A DNA stretch of 64,000 nucleotides from Pseudacidobacterium ailaaui (GTDB lineage: Bacteria; Acidobacteriota; Terriglobia; Terriglobales; Acidobacteriaceae): positions 899,001 through 963,000 of the forward strand of contig NZ_JIAL01000001.1 in assembly GCF_000688455.1 (NCBI RefSeq), in the 5' to 3' direction. The notes under the pieces are model-generated. The model was not told the origin of the DNA, made no database searches, and was given only the letters and a program-made list of their open reading frames with translations. The position numbers and the translations under genes were made by a program. Positions 21,201 to 43,117 of the stretch are shown piece after piece (within the stretch, counting starts at the first letter, position 1; each line of letters starts with the position of its first letter).

Positions 21201-21965
21201 CTAAACCACCTGCCTTCCACTACGTTCCAGAAGACGCGCCAGCTCCGCCCTTCCGCGGCTGATGCGCGACTTCACGGTCCCTTCAGGAATATGTAAAACC
21301 TGTGCGATTTCTTTGTAGTCCATGTCTTGCAGATCGCGCAGGATGACTGCTTCGCGCAGCTCCGGCGAGACTTTCGTCAATGCCTGCTGCACCATTTTTT
21401 CTAACTCTTTTTTTGCTGCCTGCTCATGTGGCGTCGGCCCTGGATCCGAGATCCGGTCTGACAGCGGACTGGCAGACTGCTCCTCGCCGCCGTCCCATCC
21501 GGCGTCCATAGAATCTGTGAGACGCTGCTGTTTGGTACGACGAAAATGGTCTACCAGAAGGTTCCGGGTCAGGGTCGTGATCCAGGTGGGAAAACTCCCT
21601 TTGGACAGATCAAACGCCGCCAGATTTCCGTAGATTTTAAGAAAAACTTCCTGGGTCAGGTCCTCTGCATCGTGCGACGACCCGGTAAAGCGATAGCAAA
21701 TGGCATAGACACGGCGATGGTGCGCCTTGACCAGCTCCGTCCAGGCCAGGGAATCTCCGTCCAGGCACCGCCGTACCACCAGTTGCCAATCTGCTTCCAA
21801 ATGCCTCTCTCCAGCCCTGCCTTGCAGACGGGGAGTTTCCCTGACAGCCGGCTGCCAGGGGCCTGTGGATTCCCGTCTTACCTCCACGGCCCTGGTTCCA
21901 GTCCCTGCGGCCTTTGCCCGCTGGGGTGGAAATCCATTCCACGTTATAGTGGCGGCTGCGCTCAT
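21201..21965 (-). CDS. ECF-family RNA polymerase sigma factor
   Basis: The full reading is 254 residues from ATG 21965. The sigma-2 region (AYSICYRF-like segment VYAICYRFTGSSHDAEDLTQ, then EVFLKIYGNL and FPTWITTLTRNLLVDHFRR) and the sigma-4 region (LREAVILRDLQDMDYKEIAQ, then IPEGTVKSRISRGRAEL) are intact. The first 55 residues have no sigma-like features. A TTG at 21800 preceded by GGAGAGAGG would give a conventional 199-residue protein and may be the real start. It heads the operon with anti-sigma, zinc-ribbon/TM2/LiaI, LiaI and LiaI/DUF4097 genes, which are its likely targets. Confidence 0.92.
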   Translation of the reverse strand: MSAAATITWNGFPPQRAKAAGTGTRAVEVRRESTGPWQPAVRETPRLQGRAGERHLEADWQLVVRRCLDGDSLAWTELVKAHHRRVYAICYRFTGSSHDAEDLTQEVFLKIYGNLAAFDLSKGSFPTWITTLTRNLLVDHFRRTKQQRLTDSMDAGWDGGEEQSASPLSDRISDPGPTPHEQAAKKELEKMVQQALTKVSPELREAVILRDLQDMDYKEIAQVLHIPEGTVKSRISRGRAELARLLERSGRQVV

Positions 21966-29827: not shown

Positions 29828-29865
29828 CAAAAGCACAAGGAGCGGCCTCAGCTCAGGCCGCTCCT
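29828..29865 (-). terminator. Rho-independent terminator after the Spy-like gene
   Basis: A perfect 11-bp stem (AGGAGCGGCCT at 29838-29848, AGGCCGCTCCT at 29855-29865) is followed on the minus strand by TGTGCTTTTG. It lies 9 bases after the stop at 29874. Confidence 0.75.
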
Positions 29866-29873
29866 CGTCTGGC

Positions 29874-30440
29874 TTACTGCGGAGGCTGGGGCGGGGCGCC
29901 CTGTCCGTCCTGAGGAGGCTGCGGAGACGGTCCATCGCCCCTGCGCCCGTCCGGACCGGGACCGAAGCGATGCATGAGGATGCGCCGGTCCTCGGGCTGA
30001 ATCGTCTTCAGCTTCTTCCACTGGTCCGGCGTCAGCACCTTGCGGATCTCCAGTAGCATTCGCGCATTGTTCTTTTCCAGCTCCGCCCGCGCCTGGGCAA
30101 TGGCATCAATCTGCGCCAGGATCTTGCCCTCATCCGGCTGCTCGGCCTCCATCAGAGGCTGCATAATCAGCTCCTGCTTCTGAACCGTCGCGCTCAGATC
30201 GACCAGCTTAAGGCGGTTCTGTTGAAAGATGTCGTCCATCTTCTTTTGCTGGTCGGCCGTCAGGCCAATCTGCTGCGCGATCCGTGGATTGTCCCACCAG
30301 CGCCCATGCAGCATCCTTCCTTCAAAGGCCCTTTCCATCGGTGGAGGCTGCATCAGCGGCCCCTGCGCCTGCGCGCGCGCCCCACAGAAGAGGGCAAACG
30401 ACAGTACCATTGCACCTGCATATTTGCTAATTTCTCGCAT
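29874..30440 (-). CDS. Spy/CpxP/ZraP-like (LTXXQ) periplasmic protein
   Basis: The ATG at 30440 gives 188 residues with a signal peptide (MREISKYAGAMVLSFALFCG). The mature part is helical with the two LTxxQ-type motifs of the family, GLTADQQKKMDDIF and VLTPDQWKKLKTIQ, and a long amphipathic helix between them. His and Met residues occur in the N-terminal part (MERAFEGRMLHGRWW), and the C-terminus is Gly/Pro/Gln-rich. Relatives include the chaperone Spy, the zinc sensor ZraP and the metal sensor CnrX. It is the last gene of a sigma/membrane-protein/Spy-like cassette and starts inside the preceding gene by 14 bases, so a sensor role for the sigma system is plausible. Confidence 0.85.
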   Translation of the reverse strand: MREISKYAGAMVLSFALFCGARAQAQGPLMQPPPMERAFEGRMLHGRWWDNPRIAQQIGLTADQQKKMDDIFQQNRLKLVDLSATVQKQELIMQPLMEAEQPDEGKILAQIDAIAQARAELEKNNARMLLEIRKVLTPDQWKKLKTIQPEDRRILMHRFGPGPDGRRGDGPSPQPPQDGQGAPPQPPQ

Positions 30441-30891
30441 TGTTCTTCTCCCGTTGTCCTGTTGCACTCTGATCACTTCCATACAGCGAATCCAACTCTG
30501 CCAGCGGACGCATCGCGTCCGGCACCGCCTCAGAAACCTCGTCGGCCACCTGGTCCAGCAACTCGGCATCTGCTTCGCGCTGCTTTAATGCCTGCTGTTG
30601 CTCTGCCATGCGTGCCATTTGCGCATGATGGCGGTAATGGCCTGCGGCCGGTAACAGCACCGCCACTCCAGCCAGAGCGGCAAAGGCCCATTCCAGCATG
30701 ATCCGTCGCTGCGCTGAACGCCTGCGCCGCGCGGCCTGCTCAAGCTGTATCAGCGTAGGCCGGGGGCCTTCCTGCTCGGCAATGTGCCATACCGCTGCCC
30801 GAAACTGCCGGATGGCATAGGCCATGTTCTCCAGGTCGCGCCGCGTTGCCGCATCGCTTTCCATCTGACGGATTGCCCGATTGCCTCTCAT
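30427..30891 (-). CDS. Single-pass membrane protein, likely anti-sigma partner
   Basis: The ATG at 30891 overlaps the sigma stop (ATGA) and gives 154 residues. A charged cytoplasmic N-terminal part of about 70 residues (RDLENMAYAIRQFRAAVWHI and RRRRSAQRR) precedes one membrane helix (LEWAFAALAGVAVLLPAAGH), then a helical periplasmic part ending PLAELDSLYGSDQSATGQRE. No zinc motif is present. Position and topology fit an anti-sigma factor for the adjacent ECF sigma, but there is no family match I can name. It overlaps the Spy-like gene by 14 bases. Confidence 0.7.
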   Translation of the reverse strand: MRGNRAIRQMESDAATRRDLENMAYAIRQFRAAVWHIAEQEGPRPTLIQLEQAARRRRSAQRRIMLEWAFAALAGVAVLLPAAGHYRHHAQMARMAEQQQALKQREADAELLDQVADEVSEAVPDAMRPLAELDSLYGSDQSATGQREKNNARN

Positions 30892-31466
30892 GCCATGCCT
30901 CCTGCCTTTGCCCTTACTGCTGCCAGCGCCCGGTACAGATGCGTCTTGACCGTGCTCTGGTTCATCCCCGTAACTTCTGCAATCTCTTTCAGTTCCATTT
31001 CCTCTACAAAGCGCAGCACAAAAACGCTGCGCTGTTTGGCGGGCAGCCGGTCGACTGCGTCCCATACCGCCCGGACCTGTGCCCGCGCGGTAAGGCTCTC
31101 CTCTGGAGAGCTGCGCTCATCCGGCAGCCAGTCACTGACGTCCATAGGGTCCAGGGCCGATTCTCGCGTCCTGGTCCAGAACCGCATCTTCCGGCTGCGC
31201 AGGTGGTCACGCAACAAGTTGGTGGCAATCTTCATCAGCCAGGTACTCAGGCTGCAATCGCCTCTGAAGCGATCCCGTGCCATGTAGGCGCGAAGAAAGC
31301 AGTCTTGCGTCAGGTTTTCCGCCGTGTCGCGGTCGCGCAGCGAGGCCAGCAGAAACCGAAAGATGCGTGGACGATACAGCCGCACGACCTCGTCGAAGTC
31401 CGCCAGCTCCAGCAGCGCCTGCTCTTCGGTCACCGGCGCCATCTCTGTCACAGCGATCTGTTCCAT
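30888..31466 (-). CDS. ECF-family RNA polymerase sigma factor
   Basis: The ATG at 31466 gives 192 residues, the usual ECF size; an upstream start at 31511 would add 15 residues. Sigma-2 is seen in FDEVVRLYRPRIFRFLLASL and ENLTQDCFLRAYMARDRFRG, and sigma-4 in LPAKQRSVFVLRFVEEMELK followed by TGMNQSTVKTHLYRALAAVR. It is promoter-proximal in a three-gene cassette with a membrane protein and a Spy/CpxP-like periplasmic protein, and is divergent from rodA. The gene order resembles the CnrYXH type of metal-responsive ECF systems, with the sensor at the distal end; this analogy is inferred. Confidence 0.93.
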   Translation of the reverse strand: MEQIAVTEMAPVTEEQALLELADFDEVVRLYRPRIFRFLLASLRDRDTAENLTQDCFLRAYMARDRFRGDCSLSTWLMKIATNLLRDHLRSRKMRFWTRTRESALDPMDVSDWLPDERSSPEESLTARAQVRAVWDAVDRLPAKQRSVFVLRFVEEMELKEIAEVTGMNQSTVKTHLYRALAAVRAKAGGMA

Positions 31467-31567
31467 GCACAGGAATAGACGGGAGGGGCAGATTGGGAGT
31501 TTACGCACCATCCATGAGCAAGCAGGTCCTGTCCGTGTTGACTTTGCGCGATAATGTTTCCTAGCAG

Positions 31568-32668
31568 ATGCGCCGCTTTCTTTCGTTCCGCGATTTTGAC
31601 TGGACCCTGCTCGGGTTCGTCCTGGTGCTTTCCATCATCAGCATCCTTGAAATCTACAGCGCTACGCTGCACACCAAGTTTGTTGGCTTCCACAAGATGC
31701 AGGTCCTGTGGCTGCTGGGCGGTCTGGCGGCCATGTTTGCGCTCTCCGTCATTGACTACCACCGCCTGCTGGACTGGATCCATTGGATTTATGGCTTTTG
31801 TATCGTCTCCCTGATTGCGGTGCTGGCCGTAGGGACCCGGGTCAACGGCGGAAAACGCTGGATCAAGCTGCCGGGTGGCATCCATTTCCAGCCTTCCGAA
31901 TGGGTCAAGCTGGTACTGATTGTGGCCGCAGCCCGATATTTTTCCAATCTGGCGGGAAAAGAGATTACCTGGACAGACATTTTCAAGGCCCTGGCCCTGG
32001 TCGGGGTGCCCATGTTGCTCGTGCTCAAACAGCCTGACCTGGGGACCGCCCTTACCTATTCTCCGGTGCTGATGATCGGCCTCTTTCTGGGAGGAATTGA
32101 CTGGAAGAAGGCCGGAATCATCATCCTGGTCTGCCTGCTGGGGGCCGGCATCATCTGGAAGAGCGGCAAGGTGTTGAAACCCTATCAGAAGGCTCGTCTC
32201 ACCAGCTTTCTGAACCCGGAAGAAGACCCGCGGGGTTCGGGCTACCAGATTTTGCAGTCAAAGATTGCCGTGGGTGATGGCGGCGTCTTTGGCCGCGGAG
32301 CCACCAAAGGGACGCAGACACAGGGTGACTTCCTGCCCATCCCATACACGGACTTTATTTTTGCCGCCTACTGTGAGGAACACGGGTTTATCGGCGCGAT
32401 TCTCGTCTTGCTGCTATACTTTTTAATATTGATGCGTTTGATTCAAAACGCTCAAACAGCCGCCGACCTGCCGGGTACGTTCATCGTGATGGGCGTAGTG
32501 GCCGTGTTGATCTTCCAGATCGCGGTCAACATCGGTATGGTGATCGGGCTGATGCCGGTTACCGGAATCCCTTTGCCATTAATGAGTTACGGAGGGTCTT
32601 CGGTGCTGTTCACGTTTCTGGCTCTGGGCATGGTGATGAACGTCCGCATGGGCCGCTTCGTGAACTGA
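31568..32668 (+). CDS. rodA: Rod-shape peptidoglycan polymerase RodA (SEDS family)
   Basis: This 366-residue integral membrane protein has about ten predicted helices and SEDS signatures: GGKRWIKLPGGIHFQPSEWV, LKQPDLGTAL with the catalytic-type Asp, EDPRGSGYQILQSKIAVGDG, FIFAAYCEEHGFIG and PVTGIPLPLMSYGGSS. These fit RodA rather than FtsW by length. RodA polymerises lipid II into glycan strands during cell elongation, working with a class B PBP that is not in this window. It is divergent from the ECF sigma gene and lies upstream of the RNase E/G gene with a long leader between. Confidence 0.95.
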   Translation: MRRFLSFRDFDWTLLGFVLVLSIISILEIYSATLHTKFVGFHKMQVLWLLGGLAAMFALSVIDYHRLLDWIHWIYGFCIVSLIAVLAVGTRVNGGKRWIKLPGGIHFQPSEWVKLVLIVAAARYFSNLAGKEITWTDIFKALALVGVPMLLVLKQPDLGTALTYSPVLMIGLFLGGIDWKKAGIIILVCLLGAGIIWKSGKVLKPYQKARLTSFLNPEEDPRGSGYQILQSKIAVGDGGVFGRGATKGTQTQGDFLPIPYTDFIFAAYCEEHGFIGAILVLLLYFLILMRLIQNAQTAADLPGTFIVMGVVAVLIFQIAVNIGMVIGLMPVTGIPLPLMSYGGSSVLFTFLALGMVMNVRMGRFVN

Positions 32669-41533: not shown

Positions 41534-41659
41534 TCAATAGAAACATTCGCCGCAAGCATGCTTTTATGGTCCTGTTACAGAAAATTCAACAGGCATTCAT
41601 CACCGTCCTATATTTCTGTTGGCTGCCCTTCCCCTTCAGGAGCGGCAAGAGGAAAACCC

Positions 41660-43117
41660 ATGAAAAAATTTGCATTCACAGCACTTCTTGCATCTGCGTT
41701 CGTGTGCGCATCTGCCCAGGACGGGCATGTGCATTGGTTACGCAATGGCGCGCCCACAGAAGTAACCATTACCGGTGGCCCGTGGACACTCGAACAGTCC
41801 GGGGCGGCCGTCGGATTGAAATCAGCCGGATATTGCGATGCCAACGGGAACCAGATTGGAAATCCAGGCACAGAGCGGATGCAGCCTTACTATTTCCCGG
41901 TTGTGAGCGGACGCGGGAAGCACCTTCAGGGTTATTTTGACTGGCGCCCGAAAGACATCGACGAAGCGGTCGTCGCCGCCTACTCCAATGACGCAGGCCA
42001 GAGCTGGTACTTCCAGCAAAAAGCGCTTGAGCTGCGCACCACCTGCCCCGACCAGGTACAGAAATATCCTAACGGCCAGAAAGAGCCAGGCCCTGACCCG
42101 AACAATAGCGACAATGGGGATGACGACGGCCAGGGGCACCAGTTTGTCATCACGATTGGCGGTCACACCTATCTCTATACACTGGACCGCGCAAATAATC
42201 ACATTGATTCTGATGACCTGTATATCCACGAGCTGGACCCGCAGCCCGGCCTTCCGCTGAATGGAGCCCCTGCACTCGACGACGGCCCCACGGATGCAAC
42301 CAGTAGCGAGCCGGAGATCGCCACCCACACCACTGGACTGCTCAACCCGGACGGAATTCTTGGCGTCGTGCCGGGAAGCTGGCCGCTGAAAATCATCTAC
42401 GAGCAGAAAATCCTGAATGGAGACATCACAGGCAGCACTGCACTTCCCGCTTCCCAGCTTTGCAGCACCTGGTGGTCGGGCTACTACAACAGCAATCCTT
42501 TTGGAACAAAGACCAACGATGACATCACCTATCTGCGTCTGGCAGAAACCTCTGATGGCATCCACTTTAAAGACCTGGGCATTCTGCAGGGGCTGAACAA
42601 CCCCGGCGATGTAAGCCTGACGGGCACTCGCTGGTTGGCCACTGCAGGAACCATCCTCAAGCTTGACCGCGACCGCTATGGCCTCTTCTTTTCTGGCGGC
42701 GGCTGCGTAGATGGTGACTCAGACGCCTTCCACTACATTGGCTATGCGGAGTCCCACGACCTGCTGCACTGGACAGTCGTATATGGCATCAACAATCCGA
42801 TCCTGTCCACGGCCCCCATCACCATGACGGTGGGACCAAACGGCACGCCGCTGGCCTCGTCCGGACCTGGCACAACCGTCACGGTCCCGGCAAATCCTCC
42901 CGTTGCTGGAAACACGCTGGGCTTCTTTGCCGGTCGTGTCTATGCTCCGAGCGGCGCCATCTACAACCACGACACGCTGACGATCCTCTTTGCCGGATAC
43001 CATACCCAAAAGCCAAAGTATGGACTGGGTGATTATCGCACCATCGGACGTCTGAGCCTGCACGCATCACAGCCCCTTACGGATGATGATGACTGGCACC
43101 AGGACGACAATCACTAG
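41660..43117 (+). CDS. Secreted beta-propeller-like protein, glycoside-hydrolase-like
   Basis: The ATG at 41660 gives 485 residues with a signal peptide (MKKFAFTALLASAFVCASAQ). Repeated segments of the type AYSNDAGQSWYFQQKALEL, LRLAETSDGIHFKDLGIL and GYAESHDLLHWTVVYG are spaced as the blades of a five-bladed propeller, as in GH43, GH32 and GH117 enzymes. Acidic residues at blade starts cannot be assigned as catalytic with confidence. It is divergent from padR-ADOP by 187 bases. An Asn/Asp-rich loop (DPNNSDNGDDDGQG) may bind calcium. No specific substrate is inferred. Confidence 0.7.
   Translation: MKKFAFTALLASAFVCASAQDGHVHWLRNGAPTEVTITGGPWTLEQSGAAVGLKSAGYCDANGNQIGNPGTERMQPYYFPVVSGRGKHLQGYFDWRPKDIDEAVVAAYSNDAGQSWYFQQKALELRTTCPDQVQKYPNGQKEPGPDPNNSDNGDDDGQGHQFVITIGGHTYLYTLDRANNHIDSDDLYIHELDPQPGLPLNGAPALDDGPTDATSSEPEIATHTTGLLNPDGILGVVPGSWPLKIIYEQKILNGDITGSTALPASQLCSTWWSGYYNSNPFGTKTNDDITYLRLAETSDGIHFKDLGILQGLNNPGDVSLTGTRWLATAGTILKLDRDRYGLFFSGGGCVDGDSDAFHYIGYAESHDLLHWTVVYGINNPILSTAPITMTVGPNGTPLASSGPGTTVTVPANPPVAGNTLGFFAGRVYAPSGAIYNHDTLTILFAGYHTQKPKYGLGDYRTIGRLSLHASQPLTDDDDWHQDDNH

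Follow-up and report, generated by a model that had tools for sequence, protein, structure and literature searches.

A predicted sigma factor, shortened anti-sigma factor and Spy-like protein cassette in Pseudacidobacterium ailaaui and other Acidobacteriota

By analogy of layout, the closest precedent for the three-gene cassette examined here is the CirY-CirZ-Spy system of Phocaeicola vulgatus, not CnrYXH. When the anti-sigma gene of P. vulgatus is deleted, the genes whose expression rises most are cirY, spy and two that lie downstream (PMC13114119). As in our cassette, genes for an ECF sigma factor, an anti-sigma factor and a Spy-like protein follow one another in that order, the order and overlaps being read here from the genes themselves. 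The sigma factor also raises its own operon and has a small regulon, as described for P. vulgatus (PMC13114119) and predicted for the cassette. A further likeness is that insertions were reportedly not underrepresented under the inducing condition (PMC13114119). In contrast to the cassette, the P. vulgatus system belongs to Bacteroidota and includes two extra peptidoglycan-related target genes, and the two are likened by layout, not sequence. The same holds for an operon of the alphaproteobacterium Azospirillum brasilense, which encodes RpoE8, a hypothetical protein and a 'periplasmic heavy metal sensor' in the same three-gene layout and is likewise compared by layout, not sequence (PMC12826043).

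The CnrYXH and NccYXH systems of Cupriavidus metallidurans resemble the cassette in combining an ECF sigma factor, a single-pass anti-sigma factor and a third, periplasmic protein whose fold is probably related. The gene order of CnrYXH differs from that of the cassette, and the metal-ligand set of CnrX includes a conserved His. The two-helix cytoplasmic part of CnrY resembles the predicted shape of P0002, the membrane protein of the cassette, and this is a resemblance only. CnrYXH controls efflux genes, whereas the cassette adjoins fabZ/lpxA. CnrX is described as membrane-anchored, with Met123 as a metal ligand (PMC7689651), whereas P0003, the LTXXQ protein of the cassette, looks secreted. 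CnrY is a class II anti-sigma factor (PMC7406223, PMC4598750), whereas the zinc forms of the cassette's middle gene match class I.

SigW-RsiW provides the closest solved sequences for the sigma factor P0001 (SigW, 3.4e-22) and for the zinc-form anti-sigma factors (RsiW, 7.7e-6). Unlike RsiW, P0002 is without HxxxCxxC and helices 1-2, and we know of no Spy-like partner of RsiW. Escherichia coli CpxP and Spy share the LTXXQ family and probably the fold with P0003; the WW motif (W48, W49) of the P0003 family is missing from their aligned stretches. In addition, Spy expression in E. coli is under two-component systems (PMC13114119), unlike the sigma control predicted here. We found no description in the literature of a sigma/anti-sigma/Spy-like cassette in Acidobacteriota.

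Gene layout, conservation and promoter

The locus lies in a 64-kb window (the whole stretch of DNA analysed, 64,000 nucleotides) of the P. ailaaui genome, which is 3.69 Mb on one contig. Three genes on the minus strand encode, in order, an ECF sigma factor, a membrane protein and an LTXXQ protein. The original prediction had the three overlapping by 4 nt (ATGA, P0001/P0002) and 14 nt (P0002/P0003), and both overlaps and the coordinates agree with the sequence of the minus strand. The features are as follows.

31478..31504, minus: predicted ECF-type promoter GTAAAC-N17-CGTC (motif match), 11 nt before the sigma ATG; -35 at 31499-31504, -10 CGTCTA at 31476-31481
30888..31466, minus: ECF sigma factor P0001, 192 aa (Pfam Sigma70_r2 3e-15, Sigma70_r4_2 5e-18)
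30898..30903, minus: AGGAGG, ribosome-binding-site-like, 5' of the P0002 ATG (read from sequence)
30427..30891, minus: predicted membrane anti-sigma factor P0002, 154 aa, no Cys (ATGA overlap with the sigma gene; class I zinc anti-sigma domain in homologous cassettes)
30703..30891, minus: cytoplasmic part of P0002, residues 1-63, a shortened anti-sigma domain with helix 5-40 and the start of helix 47-122 (hhalign, AlphaFold2)
30646..30702, minus: transmembrane segment of P0002, residues 64-82 (hydropathy and charge)
30499..30570, minus: periplasmic motif of P0002, D-x2-LL-x2-V-x3-VS-x2-VP-x2-M-x-PL, residues 108-131 (alignments; kept in most homologues)
29874..30440, minus: Spy/CpxP-superfamily periplasmic protein P0003, 188 aa (Pfam; CpxP/Spy profile; AlphaFold2 and fold search)
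29840..29863, minus: perfect 9-bp inverted repeat right after the P0003 stop, a possible operon terminator (RNA fold -31.5 kcal/mol, z -4.3)

A terminator pattern scan gave no call at the inverted repeat of 29840-29863. Downstream of the cassette are fabZ and lpxA, and a RodA/FtsW-family gene (FTSW_RODA_SPOVE) begins divergently at 31568. None of the neighbours tested with Pfam (fabZ, lpxA, the rodA-type gene and RNase E/G) encodes a metal exporter or efflux pump. Elsewhere in the window are a second ECF sigma gene (21201-21965, minus, Sigma70_r2 2.9e-23) and a 519-aa ORF (41558-43117, plus) with no Pfam match at 1e-5.

A search with P0002 gave matches in 10 of 61 genomes, its own included, and 8 of the 9 others carried the full trio. 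The LTXXQ proteins of these loci were made into a profile (A1), and at E <= 1e-6 this found matches in 179 of the 299 class-mate genomes. We took all 150 A1 places among the matches listed (30 loci and 120 regions); together with the earlier loci, 160 were examined, of which 159 had an LTXXQ ORF and 140 an ECF sigma gene upstream on the same strand. Removal of duplicates left, among the matches listed, 153 distinct LTXXQ loci, nearly all in class-mate genomes. Of these 153, 134 have a sigma gene upstream in the same orientation and 132 have the middle gene, a linkage rate that is biased upward, since cassette members had gone into A1 and the best matches were listed first. A separate scan of named genomes yielded 53 loci, all titled Acidobacteriota, with the sigma gene at 50 and the middle gene at 51, although this set may share organisms with the 153. 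The trio is apparently widespread in Acidobacteriota. Among the matches listed, the -3 start offset of the ATGA overlap recurs in 108 of the 132 homologous cassettes and this, with the sigma gene upstream at so many loci, argues that the arrangement is not due to chance. Judging from the genes, P0001, P0002 and P0003 most likely form a conserved unit and an operon.

Nineteen of the 153 loci among the matches listed are without a sigma gene. In two of these (L113, L143), each of which runs out at the edge of its contig, the middle gene is retained. Neither gene is seen at the remaining 17, two of which (L088, L103) are likewise cut by contig ends. At L121 and L091 the sigma gene is present and the middle gene went undetected by the HMM. 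L008, which has no LTXXQ, was rejected as a chance match. WW-type LTXXQ genes with no sigma/anti-sigma pair in the flank were seen at L070, L097-L099, L102, L105, L108, L110, L111, L115-L117, L120 and L127, and may be orphan paralogues or recruited chaperones. At L031 (G327) the sigma ORF ends 176 nt before the anti-sigma start, unlike in close relatives, and a frameshift or truncation is possible.

P0001 has 13 matches in its own genome, itself included, the next best at 34% identity; a plasmid search returned generic ECF matches only, all below 60%. The promoter pattern GTAAAC-N15-18-CGTC occurs a single time in the 64-kb window (0.10 expected). It lies upstream of the sigma gene in 55 of the 132 cassettes among the matches listed, the exact string being absent from the remaining 77, and an in-frame start follows 5-20 nt past CGTC in 42 of the 55. 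In 20 control base shuffles, 0.1 cassettes on average carried the pattern, and never more than one. With the C of GTC set as -10, as is done for sigmaE (PMC4598750), the predicted start of transcription falls about 2 nt upstream of the sigma ATG, and the mRNA would be almost leaderless.

A stricter pattern, GTAAACT-N15-16-CGTCTA, occurs once per genome in eight genomes with cassettes in P0002's clade, and in seven of the eight it lies at the sigma gene; the sole match in G252 is not at its cassette. This distribution implies autoregulation and a tiny regulon. Genome-wide, a relaxed pattern gave 12 matches against 27 for a reversed control, which is no enrichment, and inspection of the 12 yielded no convincing second target. 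A wider regulon was accordingly set aside as unsupported. The best-supported target of the sigma factor would be its own operon, with its predicted, conserved ECF-type promoter.

In a sister species of the same genus (G001), what remains is the promoter with about 13 sigma codons, joined out of frame to the end of P0003 (from residue 120) to form an ORF of 26 aa. The deletion scar is at L163:1387-1712 with fabZ and lpxA still downstream, and no close sigma gene was found elsewhere in G001 (best 36%). Because about 1.3 kb of the unit is missing relative to the P. ailaaui window, the cassette is dispensable in G001.

The periplasmic and membrane proteins

P0003 has a signal-like N-terminus with A-x-A/Q, a helical core (residues 50-158) and a Pro-rich tail. 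A25 and Q26 are conserved in 71% and 75%, respectively, of the 132 family proteins among the matches listed, which suggests a cleavable signal, and P0003 looks secreted. Pfam places it in Metal_resist (PF13801, 1.8e-14, 54.4 bits, cut-off 29.2) and LTXXQ (PF07813, 2e-5, 25.6 bits, cut-off 24.3), and it scores under the CpxP and Spy equivalog cut-offs. Against solved sequences, the family profile found CpxP (4.9e-6), Spy (1.5e-5) and ZraP (0.25); CnrX was unlisted up to E 1, which by itself is weak evidence. The AlphaFold2 model, with a pLDDT of 78.7 that reaches about 90 or more in the helical core, retrieved CpxP first in Foldseek (4.2e-3), then ZraP, then CnrX and Spy at 0.15. VIA Z scores were 10.2 for ZraP, 9.3 for CpxP, 8.7 for CnrX and 8.6 for NccX, and since these tie with unrelated coiled coils the fold match alone is weak. 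Conservation across the 132 family proteins among the matches listed is highest at W49 and R118 (100% to two decimals), R133, Q64 and Q140 (99%) and W48 (95%), and Met128 is kept in 77%. No second strong match to P0003 was found in its own genome. We infer that P0003 is a CpxP/Spy-like periplasmic chaperone.

As originally predicted, P0002 carries no recognised anti-sigma motif: neither Pfam nor NCBIfam gave a match that passed the cut-off. Its charge distribution (7 K/R in the 20 residues before the transmembrane segment, 2 in the 20 after) points to an N-in orientation. AlphaFold2 predicted helices at 5-40, 47-122 (crossing the membrane) and 125-149, with a pLDDT of 82 and a pTM of 0.34. In the periplasmic motif P124 is invariant, and L111 and P129 are present in at least 90% of 42 sequences.

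The ancestry of P0002 is seen in its homologues. HxxxCxxC, the zinc anti-sigma signature (PMC7406223, PMC4598750), is present in the middle gene of 94 of the 132 cassettes among the matches listed; about 44% of class I anti-sigma domains (ASDs) are described as being without it (PMC7406223). The N-termini of 22 zinc forms, used as a profile against the PDB, retrieved RsiW (with the value given above), ChrR (0.021) and others, and 5 of the 22 matched zf-HC2 weakly. Profile A6 lists RsiW (0.0027), and CnrY is unlisted up to E 10. With hhalign, 21 short forms, represented by their cytoplasmic part, aligned by profile to 75 zinc forms over about 35 columns (90.6%, E 1.3e-6), against a best of 1.57% in 199 column shuffles. 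The alignment runs from the second Cys onward only, so ASD helices 1-2 and the zinc ligands are gone from P0002. As to class I membership, P0002 lacks both HxxxCxxC and helix 1, and its remaining helices, taken together, are homologous to those of the zinc forms. Helix 1 is described as contacting sigma4 (PMC7406223). The most fitting reading of P0002 is a class I anti-sigma factor that has undergone erosion, and as a predicted anti-sigma factor it probably restrains P0001.

The unusual feature of the cassette is repeated shortening of the anti-sigma domain. Among the matches listed, 38 of the 132 middle genes are without HxxxCxxC, and by our own reading of the aligned N-termini these divide into 10 full-length, ligand-less forms and 28 short forms. 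The first residues of the short forms (P0002 and 27 others) correspond to helix 3. A median of 82.5 residues precedes the membrane helix in zinc forms and 63.5 in the others. ATGA coupling is kept in 24 of the 28 short forms, and the helix-3 motif and tail are kept across 21 short forms of two larger groups. In a quick sigma tree, P0002's cassette falls within a clade (95*) whose eight rows are all short forms. On this tree, computed before the AU result, parsimony gave 13 changes of zinc status and 8 of shortness, with starred branches forcing at least 6 and 4. A single clade of all 28 short rows was rejected (AU p = 0.0003), whereas the 8-row group and a 13-row group were compatible with one clade (AU p 0.62). 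The number of shortening events is therefore uncertain: parsimony gives 8, at least 4 are forced, and the two larger groups may unite but all 28 do not.

In P0002's lineage the anti-sigma factor has apparently lost the zinc motif and about half of the sigma-binding domain; the direction is taken as loss rather than gain because zinc forms sit on deep branches. Tentatively, and with more doubt than confidence, we suggest that class I zinc ASDs were repeatedly cut to a two-helix, zinc-free anti-sigma factor working like the class II CnrY, and that P0002 is one end point, bypassing the otherwise conserved contact of helix 1 with sigma4.

Proposed regulation and its alternatives

The explanation that we consider best, and reasonably probable, is an autoregulated envelope-stress operon in which P0002 holds the sigma factor, while the chief product of the response is P0003, probably a feedback component too. 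P0002, a single-pass protein with its N-terminus inside, would tether the sigma factor at the membrane through its shortened class I domain, with helices 3-4 kept. Envelope protein-folding stress would cause P0002 to release the sigma factor, which would then transcribe the whole operon from the promoter at 31478-31504, giving more P0003, sigma factor and P0002. As the main output, P0003 would be a Spy-like chaperone protecting the periplasm, and it would probably close the loop through the conserved periplasmic tail of P0002, in the manner of CpxP- or RseB-like feedback. In this scheme we infer the sigma binding, the stress signal, the release mechanism, the chaperone activity and the feedback role of P0003. 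In its favour are the conservation of the trio, the homology of P0002 to the zinc forms, the conserved promoter, the affinity of P0003 to CpxP and Spy, the loss of the unit as a whole from G001 and the P. vulgatus precedent. Against it count the fragile coevolution signal described next, the 77 of 132 cassettes without the exact promoter string, the unenriched relaxed pattern and the pTM of 0.34 for P0002.

Coevolution was considered as support for two interfaces of P0002. Over all 132 cassettes among the matches listed, partial Mantel coefficients were 0.51 for the P0002 tail with P0003 and 0.29-0.32 for the P0002 head with the sigma factor, and this pattern survived removal of 22 divergent rows. 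When a further clade of 21 rows was removed, the values were 0.17 for tail and P0003, 0.02 for head and sigma factor, and 0.25 for head and P0003. The argument was dropped, as the signal vanished without that one clade. The clade that alone drives the signal (L104, L107, L114, L123, L126, L128, L129, L131, L132, L137, L139, L140, L142, L144-L146, L149, L150, L154, L155 and L157) has anti-sigma tails mostly without VPxxMxPL and DNxLMxxID-like instead.

The original prediction proposed a CnrYXH-like cassette acting as a periplasmic metal or misfolding sensor. The resemblance in layout stands and a misfolding sensor is favoured, but kinship with CnrYXH is not borne out (gene order differs, the domains are class I and no efflux pump lies downstream), and metal sensing fares no better. 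If P0003 bound periplasmic metal and relayed this to P0002, freeing the sigma factor, one could account for Metal_resist being its best Pfam family, for the superposition of its model on CnrX and NccX, and for the prevalence of Met128, CnrX being described as using a conserved Met (PMC7689651). However, no His/Cys column exceeds 28% of the 132 P0003-family proteins among the matches listed, CnrX is unlisted by sequence up to E 1, and the Z scores for CnrX and NccX are matched by unrelated coiled coils. Nor does any of the neighbours tested encode a metal exporter, and CnrX is described as transmembrane (PMC7689651) whereas P0003 looks secreted. With CpxP and Spy as the closest sequence relatives of P0003, no conserved His or Cys, and a class I ancestry for P0002, CnrX-like metal sensing is unsupported and we regard such a switch as unlikely.

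Two other readings concern P0002. P0003 could be output only, with P0002 sensing the signal itself or being cut by a protease, and with no contact between P0002 and P0003. In P. vulgatus, spy is described as an output that is transcribed together with the other genes (PMC13114119), the coevolution signal is not robust, and LTXXQ genes exist without the cassette, 17 of the 19 no-sigma loci among the matches listed also being without the middle gene. On the other hand, the tail motif of P0002 is conserved and the trio is seldom broken, and we hold this reading to be possible, though on the less probable side. It is improbable that P0002 is a relic that no longer inhibits the sigma factor, leaving control to transcription alone. 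Such decay would agree with the loss of HxxxCxxC and helices 1-2 and with the disappearance of the whole unit from G001, but it fits poorly with an open frame, ATGA coupling in most short forms, and the retained helix-3 motif and tail.

Acidobacteriota are abundant, little-studied soil bacteria, and the autoregulated operon proposed here would be a candidate envelope-stress switch of this phylum, one whose promoter is predicted and whose circuit is small. If the suggested path from class I domains is correct, the cassette shows a natural route between anti-sigma classes. Because zinc, zinc-free and truncated anti-sigma factors form a series within one orthologous cassette, the extent of the anti-sigma domain that is needed becomes directly testable, a question that matters since a conserved dual interface is described in which helix 1 makes up one of the two halves (PMC7406223).
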